Assembly (NCBI RefSeq): GCF_000332095.2
Contig: NZ_KI913949.1
Coordinates: 1,272,291-1,336,290 of the forward strand
Direction of reading: 5' to 3'
Length of the DNA stretch: 64,000 nt
Origin: Leptolyngbya sp. PCC 6406
GTDB lineage: Bacteria > Cyanobacteriota > Cyanobacteriia > Phormidesmidales > Phormidesmidaceae
A program made the position numbers and the translations under genes. Of this stretch, positions 1,194-36,588 are shown piece after piece (position 1 is the first letter of the stretch; every line of letters starts with the position of its first letter). The notes below the pieces were generated by a model, which saw only the letters and a program-made list of their open reading frames with translations, was not told the DNA's origin and searched no databases.

Positions 1194-1346
1194 CGGTACT
1201 GGTACTGTGCGGCGTAAATACCCTGGCCGTTCTATCGTGGCACACCTCGGCCCCTCACCCTAGCCCTCTCCCACGGGGAGAGGGGACCGGAGAATGTTGG
1301 GCTGGTGCGACAGAATAGTAATCCTATTTCAGCCTAGGTGTACTAG
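1194..1346 (-). repeat. 150-bp dispersed element with CTAG ends, copy 1
   Basis: One of four copies in the window (others near 12011, 12891 and 32057). In the reverse orientation it reads from CTAGTACACCTAGGCTG through a conserved core with CCAGCCCAAC, a GGGGAGAGGG hairpin and GAGGGGCCGAGTGTGCC, ending near GTACT. No coding potential is seen. The length, dispersed copies and near-symmetric CTAGTAC/AGTACTAG ends suggest a non-autonomous mobile element. Its outer end overlaps the thrC stop codon. Confidence 0.7.
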
Positions 1347-2464
1347 AGGCCCATGGCCTGGGCGATCGCATCTAGGGTGGCGGGGATTCCCGTTTTGACC
1401 CCATTCTCGCCGTGGGTGATGGCCACATCGGGATCCTTGAGGCCATTGCCCGTGAGGACGCAGACGACGGTGGCTCCGGTGGGTACCTGATCCTTGACCT
1501 TGAACAAACCTGCTACGGAGGCGGCGCTGGCGGGTTCGCAAAAAATGCCCTCTTCCTGGGCTAGGAAGCGGTAGGCGGCGAGGATCTCATCGTCGGTGAC
1601 GGCGTTGAAGGCTCCCTGGCTGGCGTCGCGGACCGCCACCGCCTGATTCCAACTGGCGGGGTTGCCGATGCGGATGGCGGTGGCTAGGGTATCTGGGGCA
1701 TGGACAGGGTGGCCTAGCACTAGAGGAGCGGCTCCGGCGGCCTGAAAGCCCATCATTTGGGGCAGGCGACGGCAGCGGCCTTCTCGATGGTATTCACAGA
1801 AGCCCATCCAGTAGGCGGTGATATTGCCTGCATTGCCAACGGGAATGCAGAGCCAGTCTGGGGCGTCCCCGAGGGCGTCTACGACTTCAAAGGCGGCGGT
1901 TTTCTGCCCTTCTAAACGATAGGGATTGACGGAGTTCACTAGGGTAACGGGGTACTGGTCTGCCATCTGGCGCACTAGGGCAAGGGCATCGTCGAAGTTG
2001 CCTTGAATGGCTAGGACTTCAGCGCCGTAGAGCAATGCCTGGGCCAGTTTACCTAGGGCAATATAGCCGTCGGGCACTACTACATAGGCCCGCATTCCTC
2101 CCCGGCGGGCATAGGCGGCGGCAGCGGCGGAGGTGTTGCCGGTGCTAGCGCAGATGACGGCTTCGGCTCCTGCTTCTTTGGCCTTGGATACGGCCATGGT
2201 CATGCCCCGGTCTTTGAAGCTGCCGGTGGGGTTGAGTCCATCATATTTGACAAGAACCTGGACTTGGCGACCGATGCGCTGGGCGATGGCGGGGGCGGGG
2301 ATCAGCGGGGTATTGCCTTCGTTGAGGGTGACAATGGGAGTGCGATCGCTGATGGGCAGGTAGTTCGCATAGTGGCGCATCAATCCCCCCCAGCCTTGGT
2401 GGGCTGGAGGTGTGGGGGCGGAAGGGGGGGCGGTTGTTACAGCCGAATCTACACTCAGGGTCAC
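1343..2464 (-). CDS. thrC: threonine synthase
   Basis: This 373-residue protein is a fold-type II PLP enzyme that converts O-phospho-L-homoserine to L-threonine, the last step of threonine synthesis. The PLP lysine is visible as Lys84 in [11 protein letters not shown], the phosphate-binding serine/asparagine loop as [14 protein letters not shown], and a second glycine-rich segment as [11 protein letters not shown]. Length fits the shorter bacterial ThrC class. The N-terminal 20 residues are Ser/Pro/Ala-rich and probably unstructured. The TAG stop lies in the terminal CTAG of a 150-bp dispersed element, so the final residue context was probably set by that insertion. The DNA upstream to 2917 contains dispersed repeats and no obvious partner gene. 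Confidence 0.95.
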
Positions 2465-32210: not shown

Positions 32211-32266
32211 GTAGGCTGTGTACAGCCTGCGGCATGGCTGCGCTAAAGCGGCAGCGTAACGCATCA
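32211..32266 (+). repeat. GTGTACAGCCTGCGGCATGG repeat, left member of an inverted pair
   Basis: GCCTGCGGCATGGCTGCGCT followed by AAAGCG and AGCGTAACGCATC recurs as its reverse complement at 33714-33770, so the two copies flank the IS630 element and its small relative. This type of repeat is noncoding and common beside mobile elements. Confidence 0.7.
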
Positions 32267-32300
32267 ATCCGAGTTGAAAACCCTACGGAACTAGCTATCC

Positions 32301-33563
32301 AGTAGTGGTACGACACAGCTAAAGTAGTGCAATAGATTGTCGACTATGTCGCTGCCTCAAACACCGGGTAAAGATGCTTCAATTTCACTCTGGCATCATC
32401 AGTTGTGAATTTCCAAATCACTTTGGCCGCACTTTGGTTGCGTTCTTGCTGCCAAGCTTCGAGTTCGTTCTTGAGTTCTGCTGGTGAGGCGATGCGGCGG
32501 TCTAAGCACTGCCGGGACAAGACGCTCAGCTCGGTTTCAGCCCCGTTGAGCCAACTACCGTTGCGGGGTGTGTGATAGAGGATCAAGCGTCTGGCGAGTC
32601 GATGCGCCTCTAGAGCCGGAAACGCTTTGTAGAGCGAGTCAATGTTGTACGTATTAAGGTTATCTGAGAGCAATTTCACGACTGGCACATCGGGGTAATC
32701 GACATCCAGCAACTGACGCACTTCCTCGGCCCAGTCAATGCTGGTGCGACTGTCCCTTTGACTGACGCGCCGCCAACCCCGATTGGGGTCGAAAAACATG
32801 AACAACGATTGCATGCCCTCGCGTTGGTAGTGGTAGCCCTCCTTTGTGTCCTGTCCCGGTTCCATCTCAACGGGCGAATAAAGGTCGGACTGCAACTGGT
32901 AAGCCGCCTCGTCCATGCAAACCAACGGTGCATCGGCTGTGTGTTCGCTGCTGTAGAGGTCTAAAACCACTTCCATCTGAGCCACAAAGCGCGGCAAGTC
33001 CCGTTCTGGGATGCAAAAACGTTCTACTTTCCAAGGGCGTAACTTGTTTTTTTAAACGTCCGTCGCACCGTCTCTCGCGAGATCTGCGCCACAATTTGTC
33101 GGGCTTTCAACTGCTGGGTGAGCAGTTCGAGTGTCCAGCGGGTGCGTCCCTCAGGGGCTTCAGAACAGCACAGGGCAATGATTTGAGCCTCCAAATGCCC
33201 ATCCACCACCGGGGCAACTGGCGGTGTTGCTCGGACTCGTCGGTTGAGCGCTGGTTGTTCCCCGTCCGCTAAGAAGCGGTAGCGAATCCGTCCCACCGTG
33301 TTGCGGTGCAGATTGAGTGCTGCTGCAATCTCCTCATCCGTCCAGTGTCTGGTTGCCCACTCTCCCTCGTCCGCCATCAGTAGAACTTGGGCATGGAGGA
33401 TTTTCTTGGCAGGGGCGTGACCATTGCGACTGATGTCTTCCAATCGGTGGCGTTGCTCAGCACTTAAACAAATTTTATTTTCATCTTTTTTCCCGCGCCC
33501 CATTGTAAAACTCCTGCATCGACACTTCTTATTGCACTATTTTAGCTGTGTCGATCCACTACT
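32301..33563 (-). mobile_element. IS630-family insertion sequence
   Basis: A 1.26-kb element bounded by inverted ends AGTAGTGGTACGACACAGCT (left) and the complement of TTTAGCTGTGTCGATCCACT (right). The core TIR CGACACAGCTAAA[A/G]TAGTGCAATA is shared by both ends. It encodes a DDE transposase in two overlapping frames. The right end directly abuts a 105-bp relative with similar ends. Confidence 0.82.
32344..33503 (-). CDS. IS630 transposase, two frames joined by a probable -1 frameshift
   Basis: The first frame (33503 to stop 33024) holds the helix-turn-helix part (WTDEEIAAALNLHRNTVGRI). The second frame (to stop 32344) holds the DDE part: VCMDEAAYQL with the first Asp, VKLLSDNLNTYNIDSLYKAF with the second, and HTPRNGSWLNGAETELSVLS with the final Glu. 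The frames overlap at an A7 run (33047-33053) reading TTT-AAA-AAA-ACA; a -1 slip there yields KLRPWKVERFCIPERDLPRF and continues into the DDE frame with no stop. A-rich slippery sites serve this purpose in many IS elements, so the transposase may be intact. Confidence 0.82.
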
Positions 33564-33668
33564 GGTACGACATAGCTAAAACTGTGCTTTAGAAATTCCA
33601 GCGAATTCCTTGTTAGTGGGCAAAGCCCACCCTAAGTAATGCACTATTTTAGCTGTGTTGTACCAGTA
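33561..33668. mobile_element. IS630-related MITE
   Basis: About 105 bp with ends ACTGGTACGACATAGCTAAA and the complement of TTTTAGCTGTGTTGTACCAG, nearly those of the neighbouring IS630, plus a central hairpin GTGGGCAAAGCCCAC. It has no coding capacity and could be mobilised in trans by the IS630 transposase. Confidence 0.7.
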
Positions 33669-33713
33669 GGATGTGTTAGGCGGTAGCCGTAACGCATCAC
33701 GACCCTTGAAGTC

Positions 33714-33770
33714 GATGCGTTACGCTGTCGCTTTAGCGCAGCCATGCCGCAGGCTATACACATCCTACGC
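33714..33770 (-). repeat. GTGTACAGCCTGCGGCATGG repeat, right member of the inverted pair
   Basis: GATGCGTTACGCTGTCGCTT then TAGCGCAGCCATGCCGCAGG is the complement of the segment at 32211-32266. The pair frames the IS630 and MITE. Confidence 0.7.
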
Positions 33771-33896: not shown

Positions 33897-34052
33897 AACA
33901 ACAGCTCGGTCTACAGGGGTGAGATCAGGCACCTTCGTCATCCCGCTTTTGTCATCCCGCTTTTGTCATCCCGCTTTATCCTTGGGTAGAGAGCCCTTTT
34001 GCCAAGAGCCCCCATGCTGAACGCAGGTGTGCTGACCTTTCAGGAATTTGCC

Positions 34053-34643
34053 ATGGGAGAATCCCTGCCGCTGGCCACAGTGCAAGCAGCCGTATTTGAG
34101 TTTTTGCAAAACCGAGACGATGTAGTTGTTTTTGGCGCACAAGCCGTCAACGCCTGGGTCAGCGAACCCCGCATGACCCAAGATATTGACCTCATGGCCC
34201 TCAATGCCGCCGAACTGGCCGAAGCCATTCGTCACATGTTGTCCCAGCGGTTTCAGATTGCGGTGCGGGTGCGAGAAGTGAAAGCAGGGCTGGGGTACCG
34301 GGTGTATCAACTCCAGAAAACTGGAAACCGCCATCTGGTTGATATTCGCGCCATTGATCAACTGCCTGCCTACGAGCAAATTGAGCAAGTGCGCATCTTG
34401 GCCCCGACGGATCTGATCGCTCAAAAAGTGATCGCCTTCCACCAACGGCGGGGCAAACCCAAAGCCGGGACCGATTGGCGCGATATCGCCATGTTGTTAC
34501 TCACCTTCCCCCACCTCAAGCAAGATCCTGGGCCTGTCACCACTGCCCTGGTGCAGGCAGGAGCCAGTGCCGAAGTGTTAGGCGTTTGGCGAGACTGGGT
34601 GCAGCAAGACCTGCAACCCATCGACGAAGACGAGGATTTTTGA
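34053..34643 (+). CDS. nucleotidyltransferase-like protein (AbiEii/MNT-like)
   Basis: About 196 residues. After a short N-terminal helix the strand-turn DDVVVFGAQAVNAWVSEPRM then TQDIDLMAL gives the G-A-x-A-V...D-x-D pattern of Pol beta-like nucleotidyltransferases (Asp pair in QDIDLM). Later VDIRAID supplies a possible third acidic residue, and a helical C-terminal half (LIAQKVIAFHQRRGKPKAGT, DWRDIAMLL) matches the R-x-K-D-x-x-D/L type of AbiEii-like proteins. Such proteins are toxins or antitoxins in abortive infection, or RNA modifiers. No clear partner gene is adjacent. AGGAATTTGCC precedes ATG 34053; earlier starts at 34014 and 33999 are possible. Confidence 0.7.
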   Translation: MGESLPLATVQAAVFEFLQNRDDVVVFGAQAVNAWVSEPRMTQDIDLMALNAAELAEAIRHMLSQRFQIAVRVREVKAGLGYRVYQLQKTGNRHLVDIRAIDQLPAYEQIEQVRILAPTDLIAQKVIAFHQRRGKPKAGTDWRDIAMLLLTFPHLKQDPGPVTTALVQAGASAEVLGVWRDWVQQDLQPIDEDEDF

Positions 34644-34753: not shown

Positions 34754-35377
34754 TCATCGTCTTAATTCATCCAGCTTTGCTGCTAACGTTTCCCAAAGGC
34801 GCTTAAATTCAGGAGCCCTTTCCTTCAACTTTTCAGGATCAATCTTGCCCAAAAGTTCTGTTCCATGAGCGATTTTTCGATAGATTCCTTTCTGTGTGTT
34901 TCTAGTAGCGTTGTTGAGTGAACTTTCAATTTCACTTTTCGTTGTTTCCTCAATGTTGTTACGGCGAGGAATTGAGTTACGATTAAATCCTTGGCCGTAA
35001 TAAGCTGCCAACGCATCTGGGTCAGTCACTAACCACGCTTCCATCGTTGGTGTCATCAAATAAACCTGGTTTTCTTCAGCATTAGATAAATCCCAAGGAT
35101 CTCTTTGGTGCAAATGCTCAATCGGTGTCTTTGAAACGGGGTCTTCTGCATCCACCAGCAAAATATTTAACGCATTAGGATTTTGTTTGCAAGCAATTGT
35201 AAAGTCTCCGTAAGCATCATTTCTTGCCCCGCAAACAATCACCCTGAAACGGATTTTCTGATTCCTTGCCTTTGTCTTTAGGTGGGATAAAAGCGCATCC
35301 ATGCCTTGACGCATCTTGACCTTGGTGCTTTTGTCGCTACCTCCTCCCTCTATATAAATCCGGATTTCAGCTACCAC
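34754..35377 (-). CDS. DUF4276 (TOPRIM-like) protein, partner of AAA ATPase
   Basis: A 207-residue protein. RIYIEGGGSDKS provides the conserved TOPRIM-like Glu, NALNILLVDAEDPVS the acidic D-x-E-D pair, and YLMTPTMEAWLVTDPDALAA the family's M-x-x-x-E-A-W block. DUF4276 proteins are thought to be nucleases or regulators and are usually encoded directly downstream of an AAA15-type ATPase, as here (seven-base overlap). That architecture parallels AriA/AriB of PARIS and split-OLD nucleases in phage defence. The C-terminal Lys/Glu-rich helix ends ETLAAKLDELRR. Confidence 0.82.
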   Translation of the reverse strand: MVAEIRIYIEGGGSDKSTKVKMRQGMDALLSHLKTKARNQKIRFRVIVCGARNDAYGDFTIACKQNPNALNILLVDAEDPVSKTPIEHLHQRDPWDLSNAEENQVYLMTPTMEAWLVTDPDALAAYYGQGFNRNSIPRRNNIEETTKSEIESSLNNATRNTQKGIYRKIAHGTELLGKIDPEKLKERAPEFKRLWETLAAKLDELRR

Positions 35378-36588
35378 CGAACGCCCCCCAGTTCACCCAT
35401 ACTCCAGAGTTCGCCCAGACGATAGTTTTCGAGCCATGCACTCATGCGGTCCGGCTCTAACCGTTGAAGCTGTGTCCCATCCGGTCCCCGCTCACAGACC
35501 ATGACAGATTCTGGTATCTCGCTCAATTCCGATATCAGCGTTTCTGAGTGCGTTGTCACAATCAGTTGAGTCTTCTGCGATGCCGAAATCAATAGCTTCG
35601 CCACTGTCGGCAGAATGTCGGGATGCAGCCCCAGTTCTGGTTCTTCGATGCACACCAGCGGCGGTGGACTGGGGTGGCACAAAATTGTCAGCAGGCACAG
35701 GTATCGCAACGTCCCATCCGACAGCCGTGTTGCTGGTATCGGTTGCCGCAGTCCCCGCTCCCGCAAAAAGAGCTGCACCGTCCCGCCTAGAATTCGAGTA
35801 GGAATTTCCTCTACATCTTCGTAAAAAACCTTGAGCTGATCCACCAGAACCTGACTTCCCAGCACATGTTGCAAGTTGTTGATTACCAAGCCTAGGTTGC
35901 TGGCATCCTCCAGCAAAAAGCCTCCCGGCAAGTCTGTTTTTTGGGGCATTCTCGGAGCCGTATAGCGGCCCAAATTCCATTCTCGATAGAGCTGAATTTC
36001 CGAAAACTGACTACCCAAATACGTTAGCTCTGGATACTGGTCAGGATCCTTCCGCTGAGAGATTACTGACTGATCCGGCTTTAAATCTTCTCGGCGGAGA
36101 CGACGTTGATTTCGCCCAACATCCGTTCCAGGTTTTTCCTCAAGCTGGTTCCTGACATTGAGAACTGGCCGTCCCTGTAGATAGCGATAGAAGAAATAAA
36201 CATCCTGTTGGTGGTGATTAATCGGATACTCGTTTTCAACAGCTTCATCGGTGATCTCCATCCGCTGCCCCGCCATCGTGAACTGCAACTTATATCGCAA
36301 GGGCATCACCCCATCAGGATAGTTGGCAACAACTTCAAGTTCTGCTGTCGGTGTCGCTGCCCCACCCTTCCACAGCCATTCTTCAACGCCACCCCCTTGT
36401 CGGATTGGCACACTCAAATCATTTGGTAACGCCTTAAAAAGCCCCAATGCTTCCAGCAAATTGGACTTACCCGATGCATTCGGACCGATGATGACATTCA
36501 GCGGTTCTAGGTCAATCGTTATCCCCTCACTGCCATAGGAGAGGAAATTCTTGAGTTTGAGCTGATTGATAAAGCGATGACCGTCCAC
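35371..36588 (-). CDS. AAA (RecF/OLD-like) ATPase of a two-gene module
   Basis: A 405-residue ABC-type ATPase. INQLKLKNFLSYGSEGITID and LNVIIGPNASGKSNLLEAL contain the Walker A loop (G-P-N-A-S-G-K-S); RLSDGTLRYLCLLTIL is the signature region; PPPLVCIEEPELGLHPDILP is Walker B with E-E-P-E-L-G-L-H and the D-loop; LIVTTHSETLISEL the H-loop. No TOPRIM domain is fused; the DUF4276 gene overlapping its 3' end may supply it. The preceding IS630, MITE and nucleotidyltransferase suggest an accessory island. Likely a defence or DNA-damage module; the function is inferred from architecture only. Confidence 0.87.
   Translation of the reverse strand: MDGHRFINQLKLKNFLSYGSEGITIDLEPLNVIIGPNASGKSNLLEALGLFKALPNDLSVPIRQGGGVEEWLWKGGAATPTAELEVVANYPDGVMPLRYKLQFTMAGQRMEITDEAVENEYPINHHQQDVYFFYRYLQGRPVLNVRNQLEEKPGTDVGRNQRRLRREDLKPDQSVISQRKDPDQYPELTYLGSQFSEIQLYREWNLGRYTAPRMPQKTDLPGGFLLEDASNLGLVINNLQHVLGSQVLVDQLKVFYEDVEEIPTRILGGTVQLFLRERGLRQPIPATRLSDGTLRYLCLLTILCHPSPPPLVCIEEPELGLHPDILPTVAKLLISASQKTQLIVTTHSETLISELSEIPESVMVCERGPDGTQLQRLEPDRMSAWLENYRLGELWSMGELGGVRW

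Follow-up and report, generated by a model that had tools for sequence, protein, structure and literature searches.

The window analysed here is a stretch of 64,000 nucleotides from Leptolyngbya sp. PCC 6406. Two overlapping genes, hereafter A and B, reside on its minus strand; the pair is real and intact, and both frames are full length. The features discussed below are the following, in window coordinates.

35371..36588, minus strand: gene A, HEC-01A-like OLD/SMC-type ABC ATPase, 405 aa, GTG start (ORF list, PADLOC, Pfam)
34754..35377, minus strand: gene B, HEC-01B / DUF4276, 207 aa, predicted OLD-type TOPRIM fold (PADLOC, Pfam, AlphaFold)
35371..35377, minus strand: A/B overlap of 7 bases, GTGGTAG; the Trp-stop of A is the start of B in the other frame
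35953..36393, minus strand: rapidly diverging, beta-rich middle part of A (residues ~66-212), located after Walker A and before the signature, proposed sensor, swapped wholesale in some relatives
35348..35350, minus strand: E10 of B, first glutamate of the TOPRIM set, proposed counterpart of Bp OLD E400, conserved in 71/72 rows
35144..35152, minus strand: D76-A-E78 of B, acidic pair of DxD type, proposed counterpart of Bp OLD D455/D457; D76 in 71/72 rows, E78 in 69/72 plus 3 Asp
35039..35041, minus strand: E113 of B, part of TMEAW, proposed counterpart of the TxE metal-B ligand E508, conserved in 72/72 rows
34874..34876, minus strand: K168 of B, possible counterpart of OLD K562, conserved in 72/72 rows
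~32211-33768: IS630-type element, 55-nt terminal inverted repeats 95% complementary, DDE_3 and HTH_32
33999-34643, plus strand: solitary AbiEii-like nucleotidyltransferase, 38.7 bits vs a cut-off of 22.5, no evident AbiEi partner

The PADLOC models proposed as a check by the original prediction (PADLOC-DB 2.0.0) match both proteins nearly at full length. A corresponds to HEC-01A (PDLC04177; 600.6 bits, E 3.1e-181, residues 5-405), B to HEC-01B (PDLC04201; 248.7 bits, E 8.6e-75, residues 1-202), and the two genes are adjacent, as in HEC-01. Pfam detects AAA_21 (128.4 bits) and AAA_15 (78.2 bits) in A, and DUF4276 (PF14103; 84.2 bits vs a cut-off of 30.2) in B; an ATPase gene overlapping a TOPRIM-like DUF4276 gene by seven bases had been correctly recognized from the sequence. 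On these matches the pair is a new member of the listed candidate system HEC-01 ("Hma-embedded candidate 1"), and not PARIS. No decisive difference from HEC-01 is apparent, the window copy itself lying outside any Hma or BREX operon. HECs originate from a preprint (10.1101/2024.01.29.577857) as cited in PMC12988326, the accessible part of which reports antiviral activity for several of them, HEC-06 by name, and does not name HEC-01. HEC-01 is mentioned as a defence system in the available text of PMC12724379. In the literature searched we found neither an experimental report on HEC-01 nor a mention of DUF4276 or PF14103. As far as found, HEC-01 is an uncharacterised candidate family known mainly through its models, and gains a testable mechanism from the fold, the active-site set, the BREX embedding and the hotspot turnover described here.

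A carries a Walker A (GPNASGKSN), a signature-like LSDG, Walker B and glutamates (IEEPE), an HPD motif and an H-loop (THS), all kept across 68 rows. The AlphaFold model of A (pLDDT 94.0, pTM 0.92) is most similar to SMC/Rad50 heads (Z ~19-22), PtuA (19.8) and Ts OLD (18.9); AriA is absent among the best 50 fold matches listed. The model of B, obtained with 71 relatives, is equally well defined (pLDDT 95.6, pTM 0.90). Comparison of DUF4276 with TOPRIM nucleases at the structural level, suggested beforehand as a way to check the prediction, gave a positive answer, the top VIA-align matches being the C-terminal TOPRIM regions of Class 2 OLD proteins (6nk8, Z 9.7, rmsd 4.0, 166 aligned; 6njw, 9.3; 6njv, 9.3; 6njx, 9.2), followed by Ts OLD (7.6) and GajA (6.9, 6.8, 6.6), against 6.3 for the best unrelated chain. 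AriB is absent among the fold matches listed. Foldseek found no match of the B model in the PDB at E <= 0.001, and the OLD likeness of B therefore rests on VIA-align Z scores, coverage and active-site pattern in motif register. Likewise, no sequence-level link to solved structures was found by phmmer or by a 72-row profile of B. In hhalign the DUF4276 profile is weakly related to OLD-like TOPRIM (10.0% probability) and to DUF4435 (21.7%); E10 and D76-x-E78 line up with both, at low probability.

The residues of Class 2 OLD proteins highlighted in the accessible part of PMC7049728 are E400, E404, D455, D457, T506, E508 and K562. Counterparts in B have been assigned by motif order and profile register, and the TOPRIM acidic cluster, on the presence of which the original prediction had staked its case, is represented by the conserved E10, D76, E78 and E113. 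The second acidic position, residue 14, is less constant (Asp in 47 and Glu in 7 of 72 rows), and is a Ser in the window, with D15 adjoining. Two exceptions were found elsewhere, E10 being replaced by Asn in L060 and D76 by Tyr in L066, and some copies of B, such as these, may be dead. B is, on its predicted structure, an OLD-type TOPRIM protein, and a putative nuclease with a conserved acidic set.

Similarity to split OLD enzymes, suggested at the outset, stands as far as it concerns an ATPase joined to a TOPRIM-like nuclease. OLD proteins of Class 1 and Class 2 (6p74, 6nk8) share with the pair the type of ATPase, the TOPRIM fold, and similarly placed acidic ligands and lysine, but consist of one polypeptide, whereas the pair is encoded by two ORFs in different frames. 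Class 2 OLD and Gabija genes are flanked by a UvrD/PcrA/Rep-like helicase gene; the window pair is found instead beside the AbiEii-like gene and XFP. Gabija similarly combines OLD-type ATPase and TOPRIM parts, yet these are fused in GajA, which is paired with a helicase.

The pair had also been placed in a defence island. The IS630 and AbiEii-like neighbours are present, but the surroundings are otherwise housekeeping (XFP phosphoketolase, DUF3120 and FHA-cyclase by Pfam, psbH and tatA by eye), so that a defence island is not supported for the window itself; a separate MITE, also claimed, was not identified. The IS630 transposase is divided between two frames, at 33024-33503 and 32344-32997, and is either frameshift-expressed or broken. 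The AbiEii-like gene is patchily distributed, with matches in 7 of 39 genomes; pieces of it occur in G003 and G026, and at another place in the host genome. Third-position GC is low in the pair, which fits acquisition: B ranks last among 46 window ORFs (0.396 vs a mean of 0.631), A fifth from last (0.546). Absence is the rule in close relatives: among the 39 genomes compared, B occurs only in the host genome itself and in G035. Seventeen stretches upstream of XFP in relatives (five of them short, at contig ends) contain neither A nor B; since the other window neighbours are also absent from these stretches, none of them represents the precise unoccupied site of the window copy, and no convincing direct repeats flank the pair. 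ATPase-like matches upstream of XFP in G013 and G001 proved, on reading the frames, to be RecF-like proteins rather than HEC-01A. A second, intact-looking pair resides in the host genome at G000:C1:1902572-1905934 (L003; A frame 2-1474, B 1471-2118, 4-base overlap), and is assigned by PADLOC to a HEC-01A subtype (PDLC04184, 306.8 bits) and to HEC-01B (PDLC04210, 95 bits). At G000:C1:2865753-2869124 (L002), a 207-aa frame (ORF 1285-1908, plus strand) starts as an ATPase and ends as a DUF4276 protein; it seems to be what an internal deletion has left of a third pair.

Pattern stretches in GTDB genomes number 377; a relative is encoded by 309 of them, and the best 80 have been analysed. A sequence encoding A adjoins B in 79 of these 80, the remaining one ending at a contig end; hence the pairing is not due to chance. 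Allowing ATG, GTG and TTG starts, the genes overlap by 7 bases in 44/80 relatives and by 4 bases in 10/80, and are joined by CTGGTGA in 13 more. The best 80 span Cyanobacteriota, Pseudomonadota, Chloroflexota, Acidobacteriota, Planctomycetota, Latescibacterota, Myxococcota and others. Within the class, B is present in 23/388 genomes, and some copies have stops in frame; no match to B was found in collections of phages, plasmids and viral contigs. In the tree of A (68 rows) 18 phylum changes are counted, where 9 would be the minimum and shuffling gives 35.1 on average. A is clustered by phylum but has been exchanged at times, an example being the Thiotrichaceae rows within the cyanobacterial group. 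The ATPase of L049, a Leptolyngbya bin, is the sister of window A (support 100/99). Window A is 68-70% identical to the ATPases of L041, L035 and L075, window B only 46-47% identical to their partners; B simply changes faster. A first tree set window B outside the L041/L035/L075 group; the tree constrained to one clade had a score 7.2 log units higher. A nuclease swap in the window copy was considered and dropped, as the AU test does not reject one clade (p = 0.672).

The defence context is strong in relatives, and weak in the window. In L107 the pair is embedded in a BREX operon, in the order brxA-brxB-brxC-[pair]-pglX, as determined by models run on the L107 genes. Gene clusters in L088, L097 and L099, nearly identical to each other, are syntenic with L107, and these four loci amount to at most two independent cases. 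The order is brxC-[pair]-pglXI in L049, the locus hosting the sister of window A, and pglX-[pair]-pglZ in L096. In the latter, a Kuenenia bin, the PglX-like frame (L096:2239-6798, plus strand) also includes a Y1 transposase-like stretch. Single neighbours of defence type are hsdR at L032, an hmaC-like gene at L034 and darG at L103. According to the accessible part of a 2026 survey (PMC12839542), TOPRIM-linked OLD-ABC pairs are backup effectors of BREX; the pairs embedded in BREX operons fit this description and belong to the same class, though DUF4276 is not named in that part of the survey. At E <= 1e-10 PADLOC matches among 98/137 nearest neighbours fall into 124 families (the 25 listed include PglX, BrxC, PglZ, REase_I, DarG, NsnC, HmaB and HmaC), those among 57/83 distant neighbours into 12; the selection omits the syntenic loci of Nostocales/Oscillatoriales, close duplicates and some odd frames, protein lengths differ between sets, and members with any match were not counted, so that no enrichment figure is claimed. 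A housekeeping context consistent among relatives, which would have spoken against defence, is not seen: no neighbour cluster is common to more than 12/80 loci, and the pair thus has no common housekeeping context. Directly downstream of the pair, L061 encodes a Peptidase_C14 caspase-domain protein with WD40 repeats (L061:4998-8399, plus strand), the longest frame of which overlaps B by ~40 bases. In Candidatus Marithrix, the gene immediately preceding the pair encodes an nSTAND1-WD40 protein (L100:3279-6836, plus strand).

In Nostocaceae B is found in 23/99 genomes, mutS in 97/99. As read from coordinates, B lies within ~150 bp of the mutS match in 11 of the 23, and within 7 kb in 17. Comparison of 19 stretches from sister genomes, in which flanking DNA is ~72-97% alike, revealed that occupancy of this site varies. 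The pair is present in G462, G471, G402, G420, G458 and G404, as well as in G105 and, with a broken B, in G233; it is missing at the mutS site in G391, G433, G411, G448, G440, G454, G425, G200, G340 and G442, and a 75-residue remnant of B is left in G379. The pair is bordered by directly repeated parts of the mutS 5' region in G471 (128 and 52 nt, 80-81%), G462 (105 nt, 84%) and G458 (81 nt, 81%). At L212, L209 and L219, upstream of mutS, these flanking repeats measure ~80-180 nt, are 80-84% alike and lie ~2 kb apart; the left copy may serve as promoter. Since the G462 repeats diverge from each other more than the G462 flanks diverge from G391, an old insertion, lost in G391, is suggested. In G411 and G200 the site hosts PDC-M07A and PDC-M07B, a candidate system made of a related ATPase and a different small partner; G454 and G425 carry there an ATPase similarly distant from A. 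At this site upstream of mutS the PDC-M07A/B genes span L213:5453-7380 and L222:5627-7359, the small partner having no Pfam match and being PIN-like only by eye. Such turnover is typical of defence cassettes, and counts against a repair role bound to mutS.

The two genes probably form a defence module of HEC-01 type, in which the ATPase works as sensor and latch, and the TOPRIM nuclease as effector. Translational coupling would ensure that A and B are made together, and A would bind B and hold it silent. A phage component could contact the variable middle region of A and shift its ATP-dependent state; B would then be freed or activated, and cut nucleic acid by two-metal chemistry. Phage growth would be halted, probably at the expense of the cell, the response being most likely abortive. 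The substrate might be either DNA or tRNA. OLD proteins, the nearest to B in fold, cut DNA. In turn AriB, a stand-alone TOPRIM protein, cuts tRNA, as reported in the available text of PMC12409363. The association with defence inferred in the original prediction is borne out by the BREX-embedded relatives and by the patchy spread with broken copies, which support a defence role.

Serine 14 and the housekeeping context in the window, the negative Foldseek result and weak profile links of B, and the lack of matches to B in the phage, plasmid and viral-contig collections speak against the defence module, and the copies adjoining mutS in Nostocaceae would also fit a role in repair. An SMC/RecF-like ATPase and a TOPRIM partner could work with MutS in genome maintenance, and the proximity to mutS, the SMC/Rad50 heads ranking nearest to A by Z and the RecF-like matches of A are all in line with this notion. 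We regard it as quite improbable, given that nearly all Nostocaceae have mutS while most lack B, that the pair is cleanly absent from sister genomes and replaced by PDC-M07 at the same site in two of them, that outside this group the pair is found next to genes of BREX, type I restriction or Hma-like systems or to unrelated genes, and that broken copies occur. Somewhat less improbable, but still unlikely, is that the pair is a selfish or stabilising cassette of toxin-antitoxin type, with B as toxin, A as keeper and no specific role against phages. The tight A/B coupling, the direct repeats around the cassette at mutS and the precedent of PARIS, whose ATPase restrains a toxic TOPRIM effector (PMC11455837), can be read in this way; yet phage recognition accounts better than mere stabilisation for the repeated embedding between BREX core genes and for a replaceable region that resembles a sensor, and plasmid records yielded no match to B.

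The defence module has also been measured against PARIS, to which the pair had been likened. Separate genes for ATPase and TOPRIM protein, and the expected sensor/effector logic, are common to both, and the PADLOC AriA model matches A at 121.5 bits (HEC-01A, 600.6 bits), though this 304-position model looks like the general AAA_21 domain. That the pair is a true AriA/AriB variant is nonetheless hardly credible: AriB is a DUF4435 protein, whereas the only Pfam match of B at E <= 0.1 is DUF4276, and PF14491 (DUF4435) has no match in the host genome. Moreover, DUF4435 is linked to OLD-like TOPRIM profiles at 90.9% probability, far above the value obtained with DUF4276. The pair, already catalogued as HEC-01, may still work in a manner analogous to PARIS. 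A very small chance is left that the window copy is an inactive, decaying relic, as the fused remnant in the same genome, the Ser in place of Asp at position 14 and the stops in relatives might hint; both window frames are intact and of full length, with all other conserved residues present.

The pair itself is moderately interesting, and the part most worth following is the replaceable middle region of A. Among the 3828 pairs formed by 88 ATPases (window A and 87 different others), identity is lower over residues 76-200 than over the lobes in 3805, the means being 38.2% in the middle vs 62.9% in the lobes. Between some close relatives identity drops abruptly, as in L209 vs L010 or L071 (lobes 90-91%, middle 28-29%) and L010 vs L011 (90%, 39%); for window A vs L049 A the values are 79% and 30%. 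In AU tests, trees holding middle regions together are rejected for L209/L010 (p = 0.010), L209/L071 (p = 0.005) and L010/L011 (p = 2e-7), and not for L014/L067, tested on the middle region alone (p = 0.137), despite 98% vs 42% identity, L014 standing here for the same ATPase as in the L067/L076 comparison below; the four tests were picked after identities were known, share rows and are uncorrected. In the lobe tree the sister relation of L010 and L011 has only 47% support, and that of L209 and L071 is likewise unsupported. The simplest reading of these alignments is that recombination would have replaced the middle region; in the older pairs, strong diversifying change may be responsible instead. 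Tentatively, residues ~66-212 could be viewed as an exchangeable recognition cartridge, swapped whole by recombination while lobes and nuclease stay unchanged, the same alarm being re-aimed at new phages. Specificity domains are similarly swapped in restriction systems. AriA of PARIS recognises Ocr, probably by charge (PMC11455837), and the middle region of A may sense phages as well. If it is a swappable sensor, phage recognition by OLD-ABC proteins can be tested with two near-identical cyanobacterial systems differing only there. In L067 (Aphanizomenon) and L076 (Dolichospermum) the lobes are 98%, the B proteins 97%, and the middle regions 42% identical. At the DNA level, in 60-base windows, the two loci are 93-100% alike in the lobes, 86-100% in B and 83-98% in most of mutS, and only 35-78% alike over nucleotides ~195-635 of A.
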